From: Selenomonas sputigena
Lineage (GTDB): Bacteria > Bacillota > Negativicutes > Selenomonadales > Selenomonadaceae
Assembly: GCF_026015965.1 (NCBI RefSeq)
Contig: NZ_CP110383.1
Location: forward strand, 1,429,501-1,493,500
Direction: 5' to 3'
Length of the DNA: 64,000 nucleotides
Shown: one piece after another, positions 53,995 through 62,897 of the stretch
Position numbering within the stretch: position 1 is the stretch's first letter
How the letters are laid out: the number at the start of each line of letters is the position of its first letter
Notes under the pieces: model-generated
The model's input: only the letters and a program-made list of their open reading frames with translations
Told to the model about the DNA's origin: nothing
Database searches by the model: none
Made by a program: the position numbers and the translations under genes

Positions 53995-54858
53995 TCAGAA
54001 CATCTGCGCCCCCTGCGTCTTTGTGCAAAAGACGGCGGCATCCGTCTCTTCGCGCAGTCTCTTCGCCAGATTCTGCGCCGCCCCCTCGCTTTCCATCAGT
54101 GCGAAGACCGTCGGCCCTGAGCCGGACATCATGGCAGCGAGTGCGCCCTGCTCCAGCATCCTTTCCTTCAGACGACGGACCTCCTCATGCTCCTCTATGG
54201 TAACACTTTCGAGCACATTGCACAACTCCCGGCAAATGCGCAAGCGATCGCCCGCACCGATGGCGGCGAGCATCTTCTCCGTGTCCGGGTGCCGCACCGC
54301 CTTCTGCGCATCGTAGCGCCCGTACGCCCAGGCGGTCGAAACGTCGACGGGCGGCTTCGCCAGCACGACGGGAAAAGGCGGCAGATCGGCAAGGCGGCGC
54401 AGAATCTCGCCGCGCCCCGTCGCCAGCTGCGTACCGCCCGCAAGACAAAAGGGGACGTCAGAGCCGATCTCGGCTGCAAGCTCCGCAAGCGCCGCCTCAT
54501 CCAGCCCCTTCTCAAAAAGATCGTTCATCCCGAGGAGCACGGCGGCAGCGTCCGCAGAACCGCCCGCAAGTCCCGCCGCCATCGGAATCGTCTTTTTCAG
54601 GCGGATCGCTATGCCGCCCGCCGACGGAAAACGGCGCAAAAAGAGCGCCGCCGCACGCCACGCGAGATTGCTCTCGTCTGCAGCGAGCGTCGCGCCTTCG
54701 ATCTCCAAAGAAATGCCCTGCGCCGTCTTTTCCAGCTCGACCTCATCCGCGAGCGCGACGGACTGCATGACCATCTCCACCTCGTGATAGCCGTCGGGAC
54801 GTTTCCCCAAGATATCGAGCGTCAGATTGATCTTCGCCCGCGCCAAAAGCTTCAGCAA
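53995..54858 (-). CDS. ispE: 4-diphosphocytidyl-2-C-methyl-D-erythritol kinase
   Basis: IspE phosphorylates CDP-ME in the non-mevalonate isoprenoid pathway, feeding undecaprenyl and quinone synthesis. The 287 residues show ARAKINLTLDILGKRPDGYH, the GHMP ATP loop PMAAGLAGGSADAAAVLLGM, EIGSDVPFCLAGGTQLATGR and the C-terminal MMSGSGPTVFAL. The start is a TTG with AAGGATGG 12 bp upstream; no ATG fits. GntR follows 30 bp downstream. Confidence 0.95.
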   Translation of the reverse strand: MLKLLARAKINLTLDILGKRPDGYHEVEMVMQSVALADEVELEKTAQGISLEIEGATLAADESNLAWRAAALFLRRFPSAGGIAIRLKKTIPMAAGLAGGSADAAAVLLGMNDLFEKGLDEAALAELAAEIGSDVPFCLAGGTQLATGRGEILRRLADLPPFPVVLAKPPVDVSTAWAYGRYDAQKAVRHPDTEKMLAAIGAGDRLRICRELCNVLESVTIEEHEEVRRLKERMLEQGALAAMMSGSGPTVFALMESEGAAQNLAKRLREETDAAVFCTKTQGAQMF

Positions 54859-55020
54859 AAGAAATGCACCATCCTTCCCTCATATACCGCCATAAATTCT
54901 ATCAATTTTTTCTCTTTACAGCAAGCCTTAGAAAAAATTTGGTAGGAATTAACCAGCAAAAGGCGAATTAGATAATGTGAATTCTATTTTATTACACCTT
55001 GGAAAAGAGGGAATTTTATT

Positions 55021-56994
55021 ATGGATGAAAAGTCTGCAGCACCAGAGGAGGCGGAACGCATCAAAAAGGACGTGCGCTCCTCCCTCCTCATCGTCCTGCC
55101 CCTGACGCTTCTGGCATTCGCCTTTTCGCCGGGACTGCTCGCAGCCTCCACATTTGGCATAGACCTAGGGCCGCTCTCTCCCGAGGAGGCGCCGCTCCTC
55201 TTTGCAGGAATCGAGCTCTCCCTCGCGCTCGCCATGCTGCTCGCGTGCAAATCCATCCTCGTGCGCGGCGTCCGCCTGCTCTTCAAATCGCCGTGCGCCG
55301 ATTCACTCATCGTCGTCAGCGCCATCTCCGCCGTCATCGCGAGCCTCCTCCTCATGGTGCAGATGATGCTGACGGGAGAAGCGCTCTTTCACCAGCTTCT
55401 CTTCACGCCGCTCGGCCTCTTCCTGACCTTCACGCTCGGCGGCAAATACCTCGAAGTGCGCCTCGCCGCACGGAAGCTCTCGCTCGACGAGGACGAGGGC
55501 GTCATGCCGCCGGGCGCAGAGGAGATGATGGCGGAGCATGAAGCCGAGCGCCAGAGGCGCGAGGAGGAGGAACGTCGAAAGAAGGAGTCCGAGGCGCGCT
55601 ACCGCGAACTCGAAGCGCTGCGCGCCGAGGAGCGCCGTCTCGCCGAGCGGGAAGCGAGGCGTGCGCGAGGCGAGGTGCTGCCCGCAGAGGAAGAGGAAGA
55701 TGAGCCTGCCGCAAGCGACGCGCCCAGGCAGGAGGAAGCGGCGAAGACGCCCGAGCACACGCCGCTGCTCGCCGTCACGGACAATGCCGCCCTGCGCTTT
55801 CTCGCCTTCGGTCTGCTGCTCGCCATCGCCGATGCTGCCCTCTGGCAGACCATGGGACTCGATCTTCTGCAGACGGCGATCTTCTTTTTCTCCGTGCTCT
55901 TCTTCGCTTGCCCTGCCGCACTCTTCTTTGCCTCCTCGTTCGCCCTGCCCGAAGCGCTGAAAAAGTGCCGCGCCCAGAAGATCTTCGTGAAGAACGCCGG
56001 CGTCTTCGGCACGCTCAAGCACATCAGCGCCATCGCGCTCTCGAAGAGCGGCGGCATCACCGAAGGCAGGCCGTTCCTCGCGACCATCGTCGGCGAGGGG
56101 CTTTCCGACAGTGCGATCCTAGGACTCGCCGCGAGCGCGGAAAACGGCGTCTCCCATCCGCTCGCACGCGTCCTCGTCGCCAGCGCTGTCAGTCGGGGCG
56201 CTCGCCTCATGCGCGTTTCGGCGACGAGCAGCATCCCCGGCAAAGGCGTCGAGGCGCTGATCAACGGCAGAGCCGTACGCCTCGGCAAGCGCGAATGGCT
56301 CGAAGAAGAGGGCGTCCAGATCAGCAATTCCCTCTTGACGCAGGGCGATCAATTCGCCTCGCGCGGCAAGATCGTCATCTATCTCGCCACGGGCAAGATC
56401 GCCAAGGGCCTCCTCGTGTTCTCTGACGAGGCGCGAAGCGACATGCCGCGCACGATCCGCCTGCTGGAATCTCTGGGCGTCCAGACCGTGATGATGACGG
56501 GCGACTGCCGCACTGCGGCAAAGCGCACGGCAAAGGATGCCGGCATCTCCGTCTACCGCGCCGATCTTGCGCCCGCCGACAAGGCGAAGGAGGTGCAGAT
56601 GCTTCAGGCGCACGGTCACTCTGTCGCCCTGCTCGCCGCCAAGAAGGAGGACGCGGAGGCAGCCTCGATGGCTGACGTCGTGCTCGCCATGCAGACGAGC
56701 GAGAGCGAGATCGCACCCGACATCCTCATCGCCTCAGGAGATCCCTCGCACATTCCCCAGCTCATCACTCTTTCACGGAAGATCGTCCGCGCCGTGCACC
56801 TCGCGCTTTCTCTCGCCTTCCTCGCCGCCGTCCTGGCGGCCGTCCTGCTGCATGCCTCGCTCTTCTTCCTCGGCGACCTGCGCTTTTTGCCGCTGCTCTC
56901 CGTCCTCTCCATGCTCGCGGGCATCGTCGCAGCGACGCTCGTACCGCTCGGACTCAAGGGCTTCAAATTCGCGCCGCACACGCTCGACTACTGA
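55021..56994 (+). CDS. Catalytically degenerate P-type-ATPase-like membrane protein
   Basis: The 657-residue protein is laid out like a P1B (metal) ATPase. Hydrophobic segments lie at about 20-45, 58-80, 95-117, 124-140, 255-275, 284-305 and, at the end, 592-615 and 622-645. A CP motif (CPAAL, 297-301), the HP motif of the N domain (SHPLA, 378-382), GKGVEA (407-412), MTGD (492-495) and PADK (518-521) are in their usual places. Key residues are lost. The phosphorylation motif DKTGT reads SKSGG (341-345), so the acceptor Asp is Ser. The hinge GDGxND reads AAKKED (539-544). The actuator domain with TGES is absent; residues about 155-245 are instead a highly charged Glu/Arg-rich helix. There is no N-terminal metal-binding domain. 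The ORF is intact with a good ribosome-binding site (GAGGGA), so a pseudogene is unlikely. It lies 231 bp upstream of cydABDC. It should not pump ATP-dependently in the normal way; a scaffold, sensor or regulator is conceivable. Confidence 0.85.
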   Translation: MDEKSAAPEEAERIKKDVRSSLLIVLPLTLLAFAFSPGLLAASTFGIDLGPLSPEEAPLLFAGIELSLALAMLLACKSILVRGVRLLFKSPCADSLIVVSAISAVIASLLLMVQMMLTGEALFHQLLFTPLGLFLTFTLGGKYLEVRLAARKLSLDEDEGVMPPGAEEMMAEHEAERQRREEEERRKKESEARYRELEALRAEERRLAEREARRARGEVLPAEEEEDEPAASDAPRQEEAAKTPEHTPLLAVTDNAALRFLAFGLLLAIADAALWQTMGLDLLQTAIFFFSVLFFACPAALFFASSFALPEALKKCRAQKIFVKNAGVFGTLKHISAIALSKSGGITEGRPFLATIVGEGLSDSAILGLAASAENGVSHPLARVLVASAVSRGARLMRVSATSSIPGKGVEALINGRAVRLGKREWLEEEGVQISNSLLTQGDQFASRGKIVIYLATGKIAKGLLVFSDEARSDMPRTIRLLESLGVQTVMMTGDCRTAAKRTAKDAGISVYRADLAPADKAKEVQMLQAHGHSVALLAAKKEDAEAASMADVVLAMQTSESEIAPDILIASGDPSHIPQLITLSRKIVRAVHLALSLAFLAAVLAAVLLHASLFFLGDLRFLPLLSVLSMLAGIVAATLVPLGLKGFKFAPHTLDY

Positions 56995-57061
56995 GCTTCA
57001 AGGAGCACGAAACATGCGAGTATATCTCCTCTTCGCGGGGGCGGCTTTCTTCAACAATTTC

Positions 57062-57114
57062 AAGGAAACGCTGAGTTTGCCTGAAATCCCTTAAAAAAGT
57101 ACGGTGATTTCCTT
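57062..57114. repeat. Short degenerate TIR-like repeat upstream of cydA
   Basis: AAGGAAACGCTGAG at the left and GTGATTTCCTTA at the right resemble the inverted ends of copies A-C (AGGAANCGCTGA and its partner). The interior is unrelated and the similarity is weaker than for A-C. It sits just upstream of the cydA promoter. Confidence 0.4.
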
Positions 57115-57149: not shown

Positions 57150-57178
57150 TTGTTTTTTGCTGTCCCTTGTTTTATAAT
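57150..57178 (+). promoter_or_regulatory. cydABDC promoter
   Basis: TTGTTT (57150-57155), 17 bp, TATAAT (57173-57178), 48 bp before the cydA start. No clear Rex or other redox operator was recognised next to it. Confidence 0.7.
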
Positions 57179-57225: not shown

Positions 57226-58590
57226 ATGAGCACGGCTGTCCTATCACAATGGCAGTTTGCCATCACCTCGACGTATCATTTTCTCTTCGTCCCGCTGACG
57301 CTGGGGCTGACATTCTTCCTGGCACTTCTCGAAACCTGTCATGTCCGCACGAAGGACGCGCAGTGGAAGAAGGAAAGCCGCAAGCTGCTGCAATTCTTCA
57401 GCACGGTCTTCCTCATCAACTTCGCCATGGGTGTCGTCACGGGCATCGTACAGGAGTTCCACTTCGGCATGAACTGGTCGGAGTACGCGCGCTTCATGGG
57501 CGACATCTTCGGTGCGCCGCTCGCCTTGGAGGCACTCTCCGCCTTCTTCCTTGAGTCGACGTTCCTCGGCATCTGGATCTTCGGCTGGGATAAATTGTCA
57601 CCGAAACTTCACTGCGTGACGATGTGGCTCGTCGCCATCGGCGGCAACCTCTCGGCGCTCTGGATCATCGTCGCCAACTCCTTCATGCAGCATCCGACGG
57701 GCTATGCCATCGAAGGCGGCCGTGCCGTCATGACGGACTTCGGCGCTCTCCTCTCGAATCACTACGTCATCGGCGAGATCACGCATACGTTCTTCGCGGG
57801 CATGTCGACGGCGGGCGTCCTGCTCGCAGCGATCACCGCCTATAAGATCCTTCAGGGAGGCCCTGCCGCCGACCTCTTCCAGAAAGCCATGAAGGGCATC
57901 CTCGCCTTCACGCTCATCGGCCTTCTTGGCGTCGCGGGCGCCGGCCACATGCACGCCCAGTACCTGAAGGACGTCCAGCCCATGAAGCTCGCCGCCATGG
58001 AGGCTCTGTGGGAGACGGAAGATCCCGCGCCGTTCGCCGCCTTCGCCATCATCAACGAGGACAAGATGCAGAACGACTTCGAGATCACGATTCCCGCGAT
58101 GTTCTCCTTCATGGTCTACAATAAGCCTGCCGGCGAAATCAAGGGCATCCGCGACCTGCAGGAAGAAGCCGTCCAAATGTACGGCTCGGACAACTACGTG
58201 CCGAACGTCACGGCGCTCTTCTGGGCGTTCCGCATCATGGTCGGCACGGGCGGCCTCATGATTCTCATCACGGGCGCAGCGCTCCTCCTCGCGATGCGCG
58301 GCAAGCTCGCAGACAAGCGCTGCATGCTCAAGGTGCTGCTCTACAGTCTGCCGCTTCCCTTCATCGCCAACTCCGTCGGCTGGTTCGTCACCGAATCGGG
58401 ACGTCAGCCTTGGATCGTCGTCGGCCTGCAGAAGACGGTCGACGCCGTCTCCCCGAACCTCACCGCAACGGATATATGGCTGACGATCATCGGCTTCACG
58501 CTCATCTATCTCGTGCTCATCGTCTTCGCCCTCGGCGTTGCGATCCGCTTCATCAAGACCAGTCCTTCGCCGGAAAGGAGTGCAGCATAA
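57226..58590 (+). CDS. cydA: Cytochrome bd ubiquinol/menaquinol oxidase subunit I
   Basis: CydA carries the hemes and quinol site of the high-affinity oxygen reductase. The 454 residues start with the signature WQFAITSTYHFLFVPLTLGL (heme b595 His), followed by FAMGVVTGIVQEFHFGMNWS, FFLESTFLGIWIFGW, NSFMQHPTGYAIEGGRAVMT, and GLLGVAGAGHMHAQYLKDVQ then PMKLAAMEALWETE. The quinol loop is of the short type. In an anaerobe it scavenges oxygen. First gene of cydABDC. Confidence 0.97.
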   Translation: MSTAVLSQWQFAITSTYHFLFVPLTLGLTFFLALLETCHVRTKDAQWKKESRKLLQFFSTVFLINFAMGVVTGIVQEFHFGMNWSEYARFMGDIFGAPLALEALSAFFLESTFLGIWIFGWDKLSPKLHCVTMWLVAIGGNLSALWIIVANSFMQHPTGYAIEGGRAVMTDFGALLSNHYVIGEITHTFFAGMSTAGVLLAAITAYKILQGGPAADLFQKAMKGILAFTLIGLLGVAGAGHMHAQYLKDVQPMKLAAMEALWETEDPAPFAAFAIINEDKMQNDFEITIPAMFSFMVYNKPAGEIKGIRDLQEEAVQMYGSDNYVPNVTALFWAFRIMVGTGGLMILITGAALLLAMRGKLADKRCMLKVLLYSLPLPFIANSVGWFVTESGRQPWIVVGLQKTVDAVSPNLTATDIWLTIIGFTLIYLVLIVFALGVAIRFIKTSPSPERSAA

Positions 58591-59606
58591 TGGATTTGAA
58601 CATCTTATGGTTTGTCCTGATCGTCGTGCTCTTCACGGGCTTCTTCTTCCTTGAGGGCTTTGACTACGGCGTCGGCATGCTGCTGCCCTTCGTCGGCAAG
58701 ACCGATGAGGAGCGCCGCATCACGCTGCGCACGATCCTGCCCGTATGGGACGGAAACGAAGTGTGGATGATCACGGCGGGCGGCGCGAGCTTCGCGGCCT
58801 TCCCGCACCTTTACGCGACGATGTTCAGCACGTTCTACCTCGCGCTCTTCTTGATGCTCGTCGCGCTCATCCTGCGCGGCGTCGCTTTTGAACTGCGCGG
58901 ACACAAGGACTCCGCCGTCTGGCGCAGCGGCTGGGACAAGTGCATCGTCTTCGGCAGCGTCGTTCCCGCCTTCCTCTGGGGCGTCGCCGTGACCGACCTC
59001 ATCGCAGGCCTTGCCATCGACGCGAACATGACGTACACGGGCGGCTTCTTCGGTCTGCTCTCGCCCTATTCCATCGTCGGCGGCCTCGCCTTCGTCTTCG
59101 TCTTCGCCTTCCACGGTGCGGCATTTTTGACGATGCGCCTCGCCGACCGCCACCTCATCATGCGCGTGCAGGACGTGGCGAAAAAGGCCGGCGCTCTCGC
59201 CGTCGTCTTCTTCGTCTTGTGCATGGGACTCACCTACGTCTATACCGACCTCTACGCGAATCCCTTCGCTGCGGGCGCTCTCGTCCTCGCCGCCGTCGTC
59301 TTCCTCGCTTCCTATGCGAATGTGATCAACAAGGCCTCGACGAAGGGCTTCGTCTGCAGCGGCCTCGCCGTCGCCCTGACGGTCGTCGCCTTCTTCCTCG
59401 GGCTCTTCCCGCGCCTCATGGTGTCGAGCCTTTCGCCCGAGTACAGCCTGACGATCTACAATGCGTCTTCGACGCCCTACACGCTGTCGATCATGACGAT
59501 CGCTGCCGGCTGCCTCGTCCCGATCATACTCTGCTATCAGATCTGGACGTACTACATCTTCCGCAAGCGCGTGACGGCTGCCGACGCCAACCACCACGGC
59601 TATTGA
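58590..59606 (+). CDS. cydB: Cytochrome bd oxidase subunit II
   Basis: The 338-residue membrane protein matches CydB: LWFVLIVVLFTGFFFLEGFD, YGVGMLLPF, PVWDGNEVWMITAGGASFAA, FPHLYATMFSTFYLALFLML and GVAFELRGH. The ATG shares one base with the cydA stop (TAATG). AAAGGAG is 8 bp upstream. Confidence 0.96.
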   Translation: MDLNILWFVLIVVLFTGFFFLEGFDYGVGMLLPFVGKTDEERRITLRTILPVWDGNEVWMITAGGASFAAFPHLYATMFSTFYLALFLMLVALILRGVAFELRGHKDSAVWRSGWDKCIVFGSVVPAFLWGVAVTDLIAGLAIDANMTYTGGFFGLLSPYSIVGGLAFVFVFAFHGAAFLTMRLADRHLIMRVQDVAKKAGALAVVFFVLCMGLTYVYTDLYANPFAAGALVLAAVVFLASYANVINKASTKGFVCSGLAVALTVVAFFLGLFPRLMVSSLSPEYSLTIYNASSTPYTLSIMTIAAGCLVPIILCYQIWTYYIFRKRVTAADANHHGY

Positions 59607-59613
59607 GCAGCAC

Positions 59614-61257
59614 ATGAAGAACAGTCTGCTCTTCCTCACGCTCAAGGAAAAAAAGCATATCGTCCTCTGCCGCGCCTTGCTCGAAGCGCTCTCGGGCGTC
59701 TTCGTCATCGCGGCGGCATGGCAGACGGCTTCCGTCGTCAACGCGGTCTTCCTCCATGGCGCGGGAATGCACGAAACAGCATCAGATTTTCTGGTGCTGT
59801 TTTTGTGCGTCCTGGGCGCGGCTCTCCTGCGTCTGCCCAAAAGCAGCCTGGAAGACCGTCTGTCCGAGCACATGCGCCTCTTCTGCCGCAAGACGCTGCA
59901 TCGTGCGCTTCTTGCCGAGGGGCGCGATACGCACGGCGTCCTGACCCTGGCGTTAGAACGCGTGGATGCACTCGAGCCGTGGTTTCATACCGTCGTTCCG
60001 ACGGCCATATCGTTCGCCGTGCTCGTGCCCTTCATCCTCGCAGTCAGCGCCGTCTTCGATCCGCTCTCGGCATTGCTCTTTTTCGCGACGCTCCCCATCG
60101 CGCCCTTCTTGCTCATGCTCATCGGCAAGGCGACGCGCCGCGCGAGCGAGCGCCAGTGGTCGAAGATGGAGGCTCTGACCGCGGGCTTCGGCGAGATGAT
60201 CCGCGCGGCGATGACCTTGAAGCTCTTTCGCCGCACGGAATCTGAAGGTGCACATCTAAAGGCAAGCAGCCGCTCCTTTTCCGAAGCATCACTCGCCGTC
60301 CTGCGCCTCGCCTTCGTCTCCTCCTTCGCGCTCGAACTCATCACGACGCTCTCGATCGCACTGATTGCCGTATCGATCGGCCTCAGACTCATCGACGGAC
60401 AGATCAGCTTTCCTACGGCATTCTTCGTGCTGATTCTCGCGCCGCTCTTCTACCAGCCGCTGCGAGAAGGCGGCATCGCCTTTCACGCCGCCATGGACGC
60501 GCACACGGCAGCAAAGGCGCTCCTGCCGTGGCTCGCCGCTCCCCTCGACAGAGAAGACGGCAGGTGCGATCAGATTCTCGTGCCACCGCGCCTCCTTGCC
60601 GAAAAACTTTCCTATCGCTATCCGCTGACACAAGAAGCCGTCCTCCAAGGGCTCGATCTCAACTTTCGCGCGGGCAAGAAGACCGCACTCATCGGCGCGA
60701 GCGGTGCGGGCAAGACGACCCTGCTCAATCTTCTCGCCGGTCTTCTCACGCCGACCGAAGGAACGATCGTCCTGCAGGACGGCGCAGGCGACGGAAAGTC
60801 TTATGACCTCGCGCATCTTTCGCCTGCCTCGCGCCGCGCGCTCATCACCTATGTGCCGCAGGAAACGCATGTATTCAACGCGACGCTCGCCGAAAACATC
60901 AGCCTGTGGCAGGAGGGCGCGACGAAAAGCGCCGTGAGCGCCGCCCTTGAGCAAGCGGCGCTCGGCGGCTTCCTGGCAGCGCTTCCCCACGGGCTTGCCA
61001 CGCCGCTCGGCGCGGGCGGACATCCGCTGTCCGCCGGCGAGAGGAGACGTCTCGGCCTTGCGCGCGCCTTCTTCCAAGCTCGCCCCCTCGTCATCCTCGA
61101 CGAAATCACGGCAGGGCTCGACGAAGAGACGGAAAAGGCGGTTCTCGCCGCCCTCGACGATTTCTCTCACCGCCGCACCTTGATCCTCGCCTCGCATCGT
61201 CCCGCGCTCATCGCTTGGGCCGATCATATCATCGACATAGGAGGTGATGCCGAATGA
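59614..61257 (+). CDS. cydD: ABC exporter CydD (cytochrome bd assembly)
   Basis: CydD with CydC forms the heterodimeric exporter needed for assembly of cytochrome bd; cysteine/glutathione and heme have been proposed as substrates. The 547 residues have six N-terminal helices, an ELRTPAYRP-free but recognisable core, and a nucleotide-binding domain with Walker A LIGASGAGKTTLLNLLAGLL, signature LSAGERRRLGLARAFF and Walker B PLVILDEITAGLD. Signature residue Gly is replaced by Ala (LSAGE), which suggests an asymmetrical site. It starts 7 bp after cydB. Confidence 0.93.
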   Translation: MKNSLLFLTLKEKKHIVLCRALLEALSGVFVIAAAWQTASVVNAVFLHGAGMHETASDFLVLFLCVLGAALLRLPKSSLEDRLSEHMRLFCRKTLHRALLAEGRDTHGVLTLALERVDALEPWFHTVVPTAISFAVLVPFILAVSAVFDPLSALLFFATLPIAPFLLMLIGKATRRASERQWSKMEALTAGFGEMIRAAMTLKLFRRTESEGAHLKASSRSFSEASLAVLRLAFVSSFALELITTLSIALIAVSIGLRLIDGQISFPTAFFVLILAPLFYQPLREGGIAFHAAMDAHTAAKALLPWLAAPLDREDGRCDQILVPPRLLAEKLSYRYPLTQEAVLQGLDLNFRAGKKTALIGASGAGKTTLLNLLAGLLTPTEGTIVLQDGAGDGKSYDLAHLSPASRRALITYVPQETHVFNATLAENISLWQEGATKSAVSAALEQAALGGFLAALPHGLATPLGAGGHPLSAGERRRLGLARAFFQARPLVILDEITAGLDEETEKAVLAALDDFSHRRTLILASHRPALIAWADHIIDIGGDAE

Positions 61258-62897
61258 CGGAAATCCTGCATCTCATGCGCCTCGCTTCTCCTGCCAAAGG
61301 ACTGCCCGCGCTTCTCGCGGCATTCTTCGCCGCACTCTCGGGTATCGCGCTCATCGGCGCCGCCGCGTGGATCATCGCGAGCGCCGCACTCGCGCCGCCT
61401 CTCTCGGCGCTGACGCTCGGCATCACCTGCGTGCGTGCCGCAGGCGTCGCGCGCGCCGTCTTCCGCTACCTCGACCGCCTTCTCTCGCACCGTCTCGCCT
61501 TCGCCTGCTACGAAAAGCTGCAGCTTCTGACCTACCGTCAAGCGGCAGAAAAGCTGCCGCTCAAGGAGGGCGCAATGCGCGAGGGCGAATTCCTGCACGA
61601 CCTTCTGACGGGCTGCGAGACGCTGCGAAACTTCTACCTGCGCACCGTGCCGCCGCCGCTCCTCGCGGGACTCGTCGCGTTCTTCACCGCTGCCGCGCTC
61701 CTGCCGCTTTCCGCACTCGCAGCGGCCCTCGTCGCGGCGCTTTACCTGCTGCACCTCGCCCTGCCCCTCCTGCTCAAAGAAGAAAGCCTGCGCGAGGAAA
61801 GCGCTGCCTATCGGGACACGCTCCTCGACCTCGTCGACGGGCGCACCGAACTTCATCAGGCGGGCGCACTTCCCCTTGCCCGGCAGATGCTCGACGACGC
61901 TGCCAAAACCTTTCAGGAAAAACAGTCGGAAAAGCGCCAAAAGCGCGAGCGCCTGTTCACGCTGCTCGACGCCTCGCGCGTCATTCTCTGGGTTGGGCTG
62001 CTGCTGCTCCTCCTGCCCCATGCGCAGGCCGGCGAGATCAGCGGCATCGAATACGCCGTCTGGGCACTCGCCCTTGAGGCCGCTCTCGCCGAATACCGCG
62101 CTCTTCCCGCCGCCATTCTCGGCGCCTCAGCCGCACGACAAGCGGCACAGAATATCCTGCCCTCGAAAGGCGAGATGCAGCCGGAAGCAGCTCCAACGAA
62201 AGAAATGGCGACAAGAACGCCGCCAATGCCGGCGCTTCCCGCCGCCGACAGCGCCGTCCCCCTCTTGGAAGCACGAAACATCAGCTTCGCCTATCAGGCG
62301 GGACTGCCTGTGCTCGAAAACCTCACCTTCTGCATCCGACGCGGCGAGCACACGGCGATCATCGGCGAGAGCGGCGCGGGCAAGACGACGCTCGCGAGCC
62401 TTCTCCTGCGCCTCTGGGACATCGACAGCGGCACAATTTTCTATAGCGGCGTAGCCCATACTTCTCTGACGGCAGACGCAGTGCGCTCCCTCTTCGGAGT
62501 CTCCTTGCAGGGCAGCTATCTCTTCAGCACGTCGGTGCGCGACAACTTCCTGCGTCTGCACGAAAGCATCACGGAAGACACGATGTGGCAATCGCTCGAA
62601 ACGGCACAGCTCGCCGATGTCGTGCGCTCCCTGCCGCAAGGACTCGACGAACCGCTCGGCGAAAACGCCTCGCGCCTCTCAGGCGGCCAGAGAAGCCGTC
62701 TCTTAACGGCACTGGCGCTCGCCGCAGACGCTCCCCTGCTGCTGCTCGACGAGCCGACGGCAGGCCTCGACGCCGCACGCGGCGCAAAACTCATCGCCGC
62801 CGTGCTCGAAACCCTCGACAAAAGGGGCGGCACGCTCATCGTCATCACCCACGACCTGCCGCTCCTCAGCCGCATGAAACAGGTTATTTCGCTCTGA
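61254..62897 (+). CDS. cydC: ABC exporter CydC (cytochrome bd assembly)
   Basis: The partner of CydD, 547 residues: six helices (LISGIALIGAAAWIIASAAL type first helix, then GITCVRAAGVARAVFRYLDR then LLSHRLAF, the CydC hallmark), a long cytosolic extension, and a nucleotide-binding domain with Walker A IIGESGAGKTTLASLLLRLW, signature LSGGQRSRLLTALALA and Walker B PLLLLDEPTAGLD. The ATG overlaps the cydD stop by 4 bp (ATGA). It is last in the cyd operon. Confidence 0.94.
   Translation: MTEILHLMRLASPAKGLPALLAAFFAALSGIALIGAAAWIIASAALAPPLSALTLGITCVRAAGVARAVFRYLDRLLSHRLAFACYEKLQLLTYRQAAEKLPLKEGAMREGEFLHDLLTGCETLRNFYLRTVPPPLLAGLVAFFTAAALLPLSALAAALVAALYLLHLALPLLLKEESLREESAAYRDTLLDLVDGRTELHQAGALPLARQMLDDAAKTFQEKQSEKRQKRERLFTLLDASRVILWVGLLLLLLPHAQAGEISGIEYAVWALALEAALAEYRALPAAILGASAARQAAQNILPSKGEMQPEAAPTKEMATRTPPMPALPAADSAVPLLEARNISFAYQAGLPVLENLTFCIRRGEHTAIIGESGAGKTTLASLLLRLWDIDSGTIFYSGVAHTSLTADAVRSLFGVSLQGSYLFSTSVRDNFLRLHESITEDTMWQSLETAQLADVVRSLPQGLDEPLGENASRLSGGQRSRLLTALALAADAPLLLLDEPTAGLDAARGAKLIAAVLETLDKRGGTLIVITHDLPLLSRMKQVISL

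Follow-up and report, generated by a model that had tools for sequence, protein, structure and literature searches.

Degenerate copies of a CopA-type (P1B) copper pump occur at 110 loci in 23 genera of a single Negativicutes family, and the Selenomonas sputigena gene described here is one of them. On computational grounds these genes are descended from a CopA-type pump by way of losses, and the degenerate copies are under purifying selection with constraint shifted to the nucleotide-binding (N) domain. We tentatively propose that they constitute a pseudo-P-type-ATPase family that arose in one Negativicutes family and eroded stepwise and in which the N domain would have become the main part of a putative membrane-tethered nucleotide sensor or adaptor.

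The window, that is, the whole 64,000-nucleotide stretch of DNA that was analyzed, contains an intact ORF of 657 amino acids on the forward strand (ORF listing and translation). It starts with an ATG at 55021 that has a GAGGG stretch on its 5' side and it ends cleanly, as the initial annotation had described. With 107.7 bits the protein lies above the cut-off of the P-type ATPase subfamily profile TIGR01494 (62.3 bits), and with 195.2 bits it misses the curated cut-off of the P1B heavy-metal ATPase profile TIGR01525 (346.25). The motif readings of the initial annotation (CP, SKSGG, HP, TGD, and AAKKED) are all confirmed by translation and alignment, but its broader statement that every motif of the phosphorylation cycle had been rewritten goes too far. 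The Asp of DKTGT is the residue that is phosphorylated in the P-type ATPase cycle; SKSGG stands in its place in the window protein, without a phosphorylatable Asp. At the place of GDGxND is AAKKED, in which the first, Mg-binding Asp is gone and the last Asp is kept. TGES and a full actuator (A) domain are missing, as had been noted, with the Pfam profile E1-E2_ATPase matched only in part (residues 242–316 to profile positions 105–178 of 181) and below its cut-off. The statement does not extend to E374, H379-P380, GxG (G407 and G409), T493-G-D495, K521, and the last Asp of GDGxND, all of which are kept; in the alignment the P1B N-domain contacts Glu, HP, and GxG are thus all present. The copper ligands are replaced: CP remains at 297–298 and CPC reads CPA, Y-N reads AA, and M-x-x-S-S reads MLAGI. 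By descent, as judged from profile similarity over the P and N domains, the window protein is a P-type ATPase; it has neither the DKTGT Asp, the A domain with TGES, and the first Asp of GDGxND that define the enzyme nor the CPC, YN, and MxxSS ligands that define P1B-1 CopA. Five more matches are encoded in the window genome (2.61 Mb, one contig); each has DKTGT, and one is a long CopA (L003). A promoter-like TTAACC-16-GATAAT lies upstream of the ORF (54949–54976; consensus match only), and a short ORF of 26 codons, which has an AAGGAG site, lies after its stop codon (57013–57093), in a frame that is not kept in G001.

Table 1. Features of the pseudo-CopA locus, in window coordinates.
Feature	Position	Strand	Basis
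Degenerate P1B-ATPase (pseudo-CopA) ORF, 657 aa	55021..56994	+	translation, relatives
N-terminal hydrophobic helices, residues ~1–150, corresponding to first four CopA helices; no HMA domain aligned	55021..55470	+	alignment with CopA homologs
Glu/Arg-rich linker, residues 151–246, at place of CopA actuator domain	55471..55758	+	alignment, model
M3-M4 equivalent helices; CPA (297–299) for CPC	55759..55983	+	alignment
DKTGT site, SKSGG (341–345)	56041..56055	+	alignment
N (nucleotide-binding) domain, residues 353–457; E374, H379, G407, G409 kept	56077..56391	+	conservation, w by region
P domain second half, residues 458–566; TGD 493–495 and K521 kept; AAKKED 539–544	56392..56718	+	alignment
C-terminal two helices; AA for Y-N, MLAGI for M-x-x-S-S	56743..56991	+	copper-ligand alignment
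ispE, divergent neighbor; beside gene in 56/110 degenerate loci	53995..54858	-	locus comparison
cydABDC; cydA next downstream in 36/110 degenerate loci	57226..62897	+	locus comparison
TTGTTT-17-TATAAT, possible separate cydA promoter	57150..57178	+	read by eye, not in consensus scan; same letters in G001

Sixty relatives were surveyed first, followed by 189 genomes of the same Negativicutes family, for which the query was an alignment of 19 degenerate members. Because loci were taken from best hits, the 110 degenerate ones are not a random sample; the full table holds 133 loci, namely these 110, which lack DKTGT and come one each from 110 genomes, and 23 with DKTGT, including ten from other families (f15, f29, and f34). 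Orthologs that share the losses, which the initial annotation had predicted, exist in number, among them a 98% identical neighbor of the window copy (G001). When 300 genomes sampled across the class were searched, the matches listed outside the family all had open frames of at least 743 amino acids, although weaker degenerate copies may lie below those listed; a scan of genome contigs found only a distant Verrucomicrobiales relative (23%). Within the family the degenerate forms range from one with an altered A domain to A-less forms of ~650 amino acids, the window type, and forms of ~430 amino acids; counted from stop to stop, the frame reaches at least 500 codons at 22 of the 110 loci and is shorter at the other 88. 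Two copies, both in multi-contig assemblies, appear damaged: L043 (G030) has a TAG inside the frame and L131 (G195) has a shortened frame of 337 codons. Both are included in the letter counts over 110 and excluded from the genus-weighted columns, the counts over 108, the dN/dS pairs, and the trees.

The losses are shared widely and differ in degree between the domains. At the Asp of DKTGT the 110 loci read G (26), S (22), N (20), A (16), P (15), T (6), C (2), R (1), Asp (1, the DRSGT of G020), and a gap (1). TGES is at its place in none of them, and an A domain is found only at the five g6 loci, which there read TGKK, TGSF, TGDS, TGIK, and TGKK. The first Asp of GDGxND is present at 26 and the last at 78 of the 110 loci; T493 and K521, like this last Asp, are mostly kept. 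Copper ligands are complete in all 21 canonical copies compared (L040 and L068 of the 23 were left out), and at 108 degenerate loci the two Cys remain in 12 and 10, Tyr in 1, Asn in 12, Met in 7, and the three Ser of M-S-x-S-S in 3, 5, and 21. Weighted by genus (22 genera), columns conserved in canonical copies are retained at 0.65 in the N domain, 0.41–0.43 in the P domain, and 0.20–0.31 in the membrane parts. On the same weighting, retention is 0.97 for E374, 0.92 for H379, 0.77 for G407 (present at 83 of the 110 loci), and 1.00 for G409; in g13 (19 loci) the pocket His or Pro is often changed. R420, E411, W426, T440, D443, Q444, and E524 show higher conservation in the degenerate copies than in the canonical ones. 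Used as a lone query, the N domain has a hit at E < 1e-16 in 94 of the 101 family genomes drawn, a canonical copy in two of these (G010 and G024), and the highest score that it gives for a long CopA (850-aa type) is 45 bits; the seven genomes without such a match are G011, G090, G091, G008, G036, G013, and G114.

Both profiles and trees place the family among the copper pumps. TIGR01525 is matched at E ≤ 0.001 by all 19 members of the degenerate-family alignment (A2), and copper-ATPase structures are the first PDB hits of the A2 profile (3rfu, E 3.9e-86). In a long-branched tree of 64 rows, computed with the motif columns removed after seven long or near-duplicate rows had been taken out and with the root taken on the canonical side, one branch separates the degenerate from the canonical rows (100/99; 100% of 200 bootstrap trees). 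A quick tree of all 71 rows with the motif columns included gives the same split. The g6 copies, which have an A domain, attach beside the canonical rows (95/90), 28 of the 30 short rows form one clade (100/99), and the long A-less forms, including the window copy, G001, and G020, lie between g6 and the short clade in a weakly supported order (46/85). Four architecture changes are counted on the tree. A single clade of all 30 short forms gives a p-AU of 0.012, a value weakened by the group having been named after the first tree was seen, and the N-terminal half was thus probably lost more than once, with g22 apart. The closest relative outside the window genus, L038 of G020, retains the Asp in DRSGT and has lost TGES, the A domain, and GDGxND; the Asp was therefore either lost more than once or regained.

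The canonical rows nearest the window protein on the trees are CopA-type copies of the same family in G016, G024, and G010/G161. They differ from it in having canonical DKTGT, TGES, GDGxND, and CPC (the G024 contig ends inside GDGxND), and the segments WL and LLTxxDQLAxxGK are common to the window protein and the copies of G016, G010, and G024. The canonical copy of G016 adjoins ispE, and those of G025 and G095 lie beside ispE with cydA downstream, from which it follows that a working pump was probably present at the locus before the degenerate form. According to the initial annotation, orthologs with DKTGT and an A domain would mark the window copy as a decaying pseudogene. Such orthologs do exist in part (G016, G025/G095); given how widespread and constrained the degenerate copies are, we interpret these orthologs as representing the ancestral state.

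We calculated dN/dS (w) by the Nei-Gojobori method with Jukes-Cantor, with region borders set by the alignment and with pairs that overlap except for 20 disjoint ones. Over 53 degenerate pairs with dS < 1, w is 0.034–0.222 with a median of 0.108, which, together with the losses shared among relatives, supports the earlier suggestion of a pseudoenzyme under purifying selection. The close pair of the window genus, G000/G001, has a w of 0.196 versus 0.165 for ispE, and some pairs with dS > 1 run higher (0.37–0.63 in g15, 0.38 in g3, and 0.33 in g17). By region, the N domain has the lowest w in g9 (0.016, 27 pairs), g17 (0.037, 13 pairs), g7 (0.081, 3 pairs), and g22 (0.054, 4 pairs, versus 0.057 for the C-terminal helices). 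The pattern is broken in g3 (N 0.128, M3-M4 0.082; 2 pairs) and in G000/G001, where the second half of the P domain is lowest (0.052 versus 0.111 for N) on a handful of changes. In 19 of the 20 disjoint pairs the N domain changes more slowly than the remainder of the protein; G022/G062 is the exception, and the margin in G000/G001 is small (0.0107 versus 0.0136). The pooled w of the N domain is 0.053 versus 0.095–0.176.

The long CopA of the same genera served as a control and shows the N domain as the fastest of five regions, with w of 0.241 in g9 (all 27 pairs), 0.188 in g17 (7 of 13 pairs), and 0.182 in g7 (2 of 3 pairs), and with M3-M4 at 0.067–0.081. Control CopAs were chosen by DKTGT; 22 of the 27 have TGES, GDG[IV]ND, and CPC, and four g17 copies have SGES. 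In canonical pairs of the sister lineage g10, the N domain has a w of 0.054, which is not below all other regions, and in canonical f34 pairs it has 0.175. Two observations on the long CopAs themselves may be recorded: the full-length copies with SGES for TGES are L214, L215, L219, and L220 (G182, G190, G191, and G176), all in g17, and L237 (G079) has a 519-codon frame without GDGxND and one TGA inside the search match.

Residues ~155–245 of the window protein, where CopA has its actuator domain, are Glu/Arg-rich, and the initial annotation took this stretch for a charged helix swapped in for the A domain. The composition is as it had stated. Helix 166–215 is the sole fairly confident part of the single-sequence model (blocks of 74–82 pLDDT from 171 to 210). 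Among the A-less long copies fetched, this helix is seen only in the window genus (G000 and G001); G021 has a linker of ~50 residues of different composition in these columns, and the remaining copies have ~2–11 residues there. A replacement module with a general role is therefore rejected. Single-sequence models are poor as a whole (mean pLDDT 45.3 for the protein and 46.7 for the N domain alone), and the N-domain pocket was for this reason placed by alignment.

Flanking genes were compared among the loci and with the genes of the window. The ispE gene lies beside the pseudo-pump at 56 loci (19 genera) and is the first upstream landmark at 52, always on the opposite strand, and cydA is the first downstream landmark at 36 (8 genera); both are found at 17. 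No ispE is present in the fetched stretch at 18 of 19 g13 loci and at all 14 g9 loci, and cydA lies downstream without ispE in that stretch at all 14 g9 loci and at five of six g3 loci. In g11 and g23, ispE and cydA stand back to back without the pseudo-pump (in the ispE-flank comparison G008, G036, and G024 are missing wholly or in part), and in G023, where the best match is canonical, they are 289 bases apart. In g11 an ORF of 280–283 amino acids with ferredoxin-type Cys clusters at both ends lies between the two genes, at the place that the pseudo-pump occupies in other genera (L199:3721–4569, L200:3482–4330, and L201:3648–4487).

From the adjacent cydABDC operon the initial annotation had proposed a role in the assembly of cytochrome bd, in handling metal or heme, or in sensing, to which we now assign very little probability. 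The adjacency of cydA at 36 of the 110 loci, which extends to loci without a nearby ispE (those of g9 and g3 just mentioned) and to a canonical g25 copy, would agree with such a role. Yet 33 of the 189 family genomes have no cydA (156 do), and the degenerate copy is uninterrupted in 22 of these, 11 of them at least 90% complete, and broken in G030; of the other ten, eight are outside the fetched loci and two (G010 and G161) have a canonical copy (20 of the 33 were named directly by the search and 13 by elimination). In the cyd-less g7 the gene has a w of 0.143–0.222 at dS < 1. Conversely, in six cydA-bearing genomes of g8, g11, and g23 no degenerate copy was found, five of them having no N-domain match below 1e-16, and all seven genomes without such a match have cydA. 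Neither gene thus needs the other, the co-occurrence with cydAB that marks a cytochrome bd accessory gene is not found, and in the window a TATAAT box lies between the ORF and cydA. On the evidence of co-occurrence and gene order, and of selection where cyd genes are absent, the oxidase link is rejected as a general reading. A parallel could be seen in CcoI/FixI of cbb3 oxidase assembly, another P1B ATPase with an oxidase link in some genomes. Cytochrome bd, however, is not known to contain copper, and the oxidase link of the pseudo-pump is not general; CcoI is an active copper transporter (PMC8475189).

Decay of a redundant copper pump is scarcely credible: the long tree branches, the many losses, the broken G030 (TAG) and shortened G195 copies, and the w of 0.33–0.63 in some pairs with dS > 1 (g15, g3, and g17) would fit a pseudogene, but the 53 pairs with dS < 1 (median w 0.108) refute this as a general reading, frames are open in 22 genera, and the 11 short forms examined have a Shine-Dalgarno-like stretch before the start (loose test). 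It is also highly improbable that the proteins are still enzymes or transporters that work through other residues. T493, K521, and the last GDGxND Asp are mostly kept and G020 retains its Asp; against this, the nucleophile site is occupied by G, S, N, A, P, T, C, or R at 108 of 110 loci, the copper ligands are mostly lost, and the A domain is absent except in g6. A putative modulator of the same cell's full CopA, acting as a hetero-complex or a decoy through which nucleotide level sets copper export, would suit both the origin from CopA and the presence of a long CopA at E < 1e-220 in 27 of 28 genomes tested (the exception, G174, is 69% complete); CopA is, however, usually regarded as a working monomer, and we consider this reading as improbable. 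A pure docking scaffold, in which the N domain is kept for binding a partner protein and nucleotide binding is lost or irrelevant, seems to us somewhat unlikely. Docking alone could account for the N-domain constraint, the residues that are more conserved than in canonical copies (R420, E411, W426, T440, D443, Q444, and E524) suggest a surface, and in g13 the gene is still open although the pocket His or Pro is often changed; on the other side, E374, H379, and G409 are among the best-kept columns.

The reading that we favor, with a confidence that stands about midway, is that the protein most likely does not pump and, anchored in the membrane, serves as a nucleotide-binding regulator or scaffold; nucleotide binding, partner, and regulation are the conjectural parts of this reading. 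The ATP contacts of P1B N domains include E1064, H1069, and G1101 of the Wilson protein, and by analogy we take E374, H379, and GxG to be nucleotide contacts here; from the kept E374/H379/GxG pocket in the alignment we infer that the N domain binds nucleotide. The ancestor of the family would have had a second CopA-type copper pump, probably divergent from ispE, that ceased to pump. It would have been stripped of its copper ligands, TGES, the phosphorylated Asp, the Mg-binding Asp of GDGxND, and (in all genera but one) the whole A domain, in many lineages along with the N-terminal membrane half. The gene would have been retained for its cytoplasmic N domain, the ATP-binding part of a pump, on an anchor of four to eight helices. 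This domain may hold nucleotide in the kept Glu/His/GxG pocket without phosphate transfer, and a partner protein, possibly through the conserved R420-W426-T440-D443-Q444 surface, may read its bound or free state, which would make the protein a nucleotide-gated membrane regulator or scaffold. In the alignment these surface residues occur already in sister canonical CopAs. WL and LLTxxDQLAxxGK are likewise shared with the sister canonical pumps, so that a second role of the N domain may predate the loss of pumping.

Over ~400 profile positions, M3-M4, the P and N domains, and the C-terminal helices align with CopA, the P1B-1 Cu(I) export ATPases (3rfu, 3j09, and 7r0g). Like CopA, the window protein keeps the N-domain Glu, His, and GxG; unlike CopA, it has no phosphorylatable Asp and no A domain, its CPC/YN/MxxSS ligands are replaced, and no HMA domain is aligned. 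To our knowledge, no family combines loss of the Asp, the A domain, and the metal site with a retained N domain, nor are we aware of any described family of transport ATPases in which the chemistry was lost and selection nevertheless persisted as in the pseudo-pump. The TMEM94 and FUPA families are non-canonical P-type ATPases, and P6/CtpE (PMC10654040 and PMC5615198) are likewise superfamily members off the usual pattern. Among the papers listed in a literature search, which were judged mainly on titles and abstract openings and included few subscription papers, none described such a family.

The family forms a graded series from the intact pump through a changed A domain and A-less forms to a half-length form, and for each domain the full CopA in the same genomes provides a reference for constraint. 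Whether the nucleotide-binding domain of P-type ATPases can function independently can now be tested directly. Since pseudo-pump genes can pass a pump profile, as the window protein does with TIGR01494, they could be annotated as transporters. If our proposal is true, the N domain, which evolves fast in the pump, would in this Negativicutes family have become the region on which the function of the protein mainly depends.
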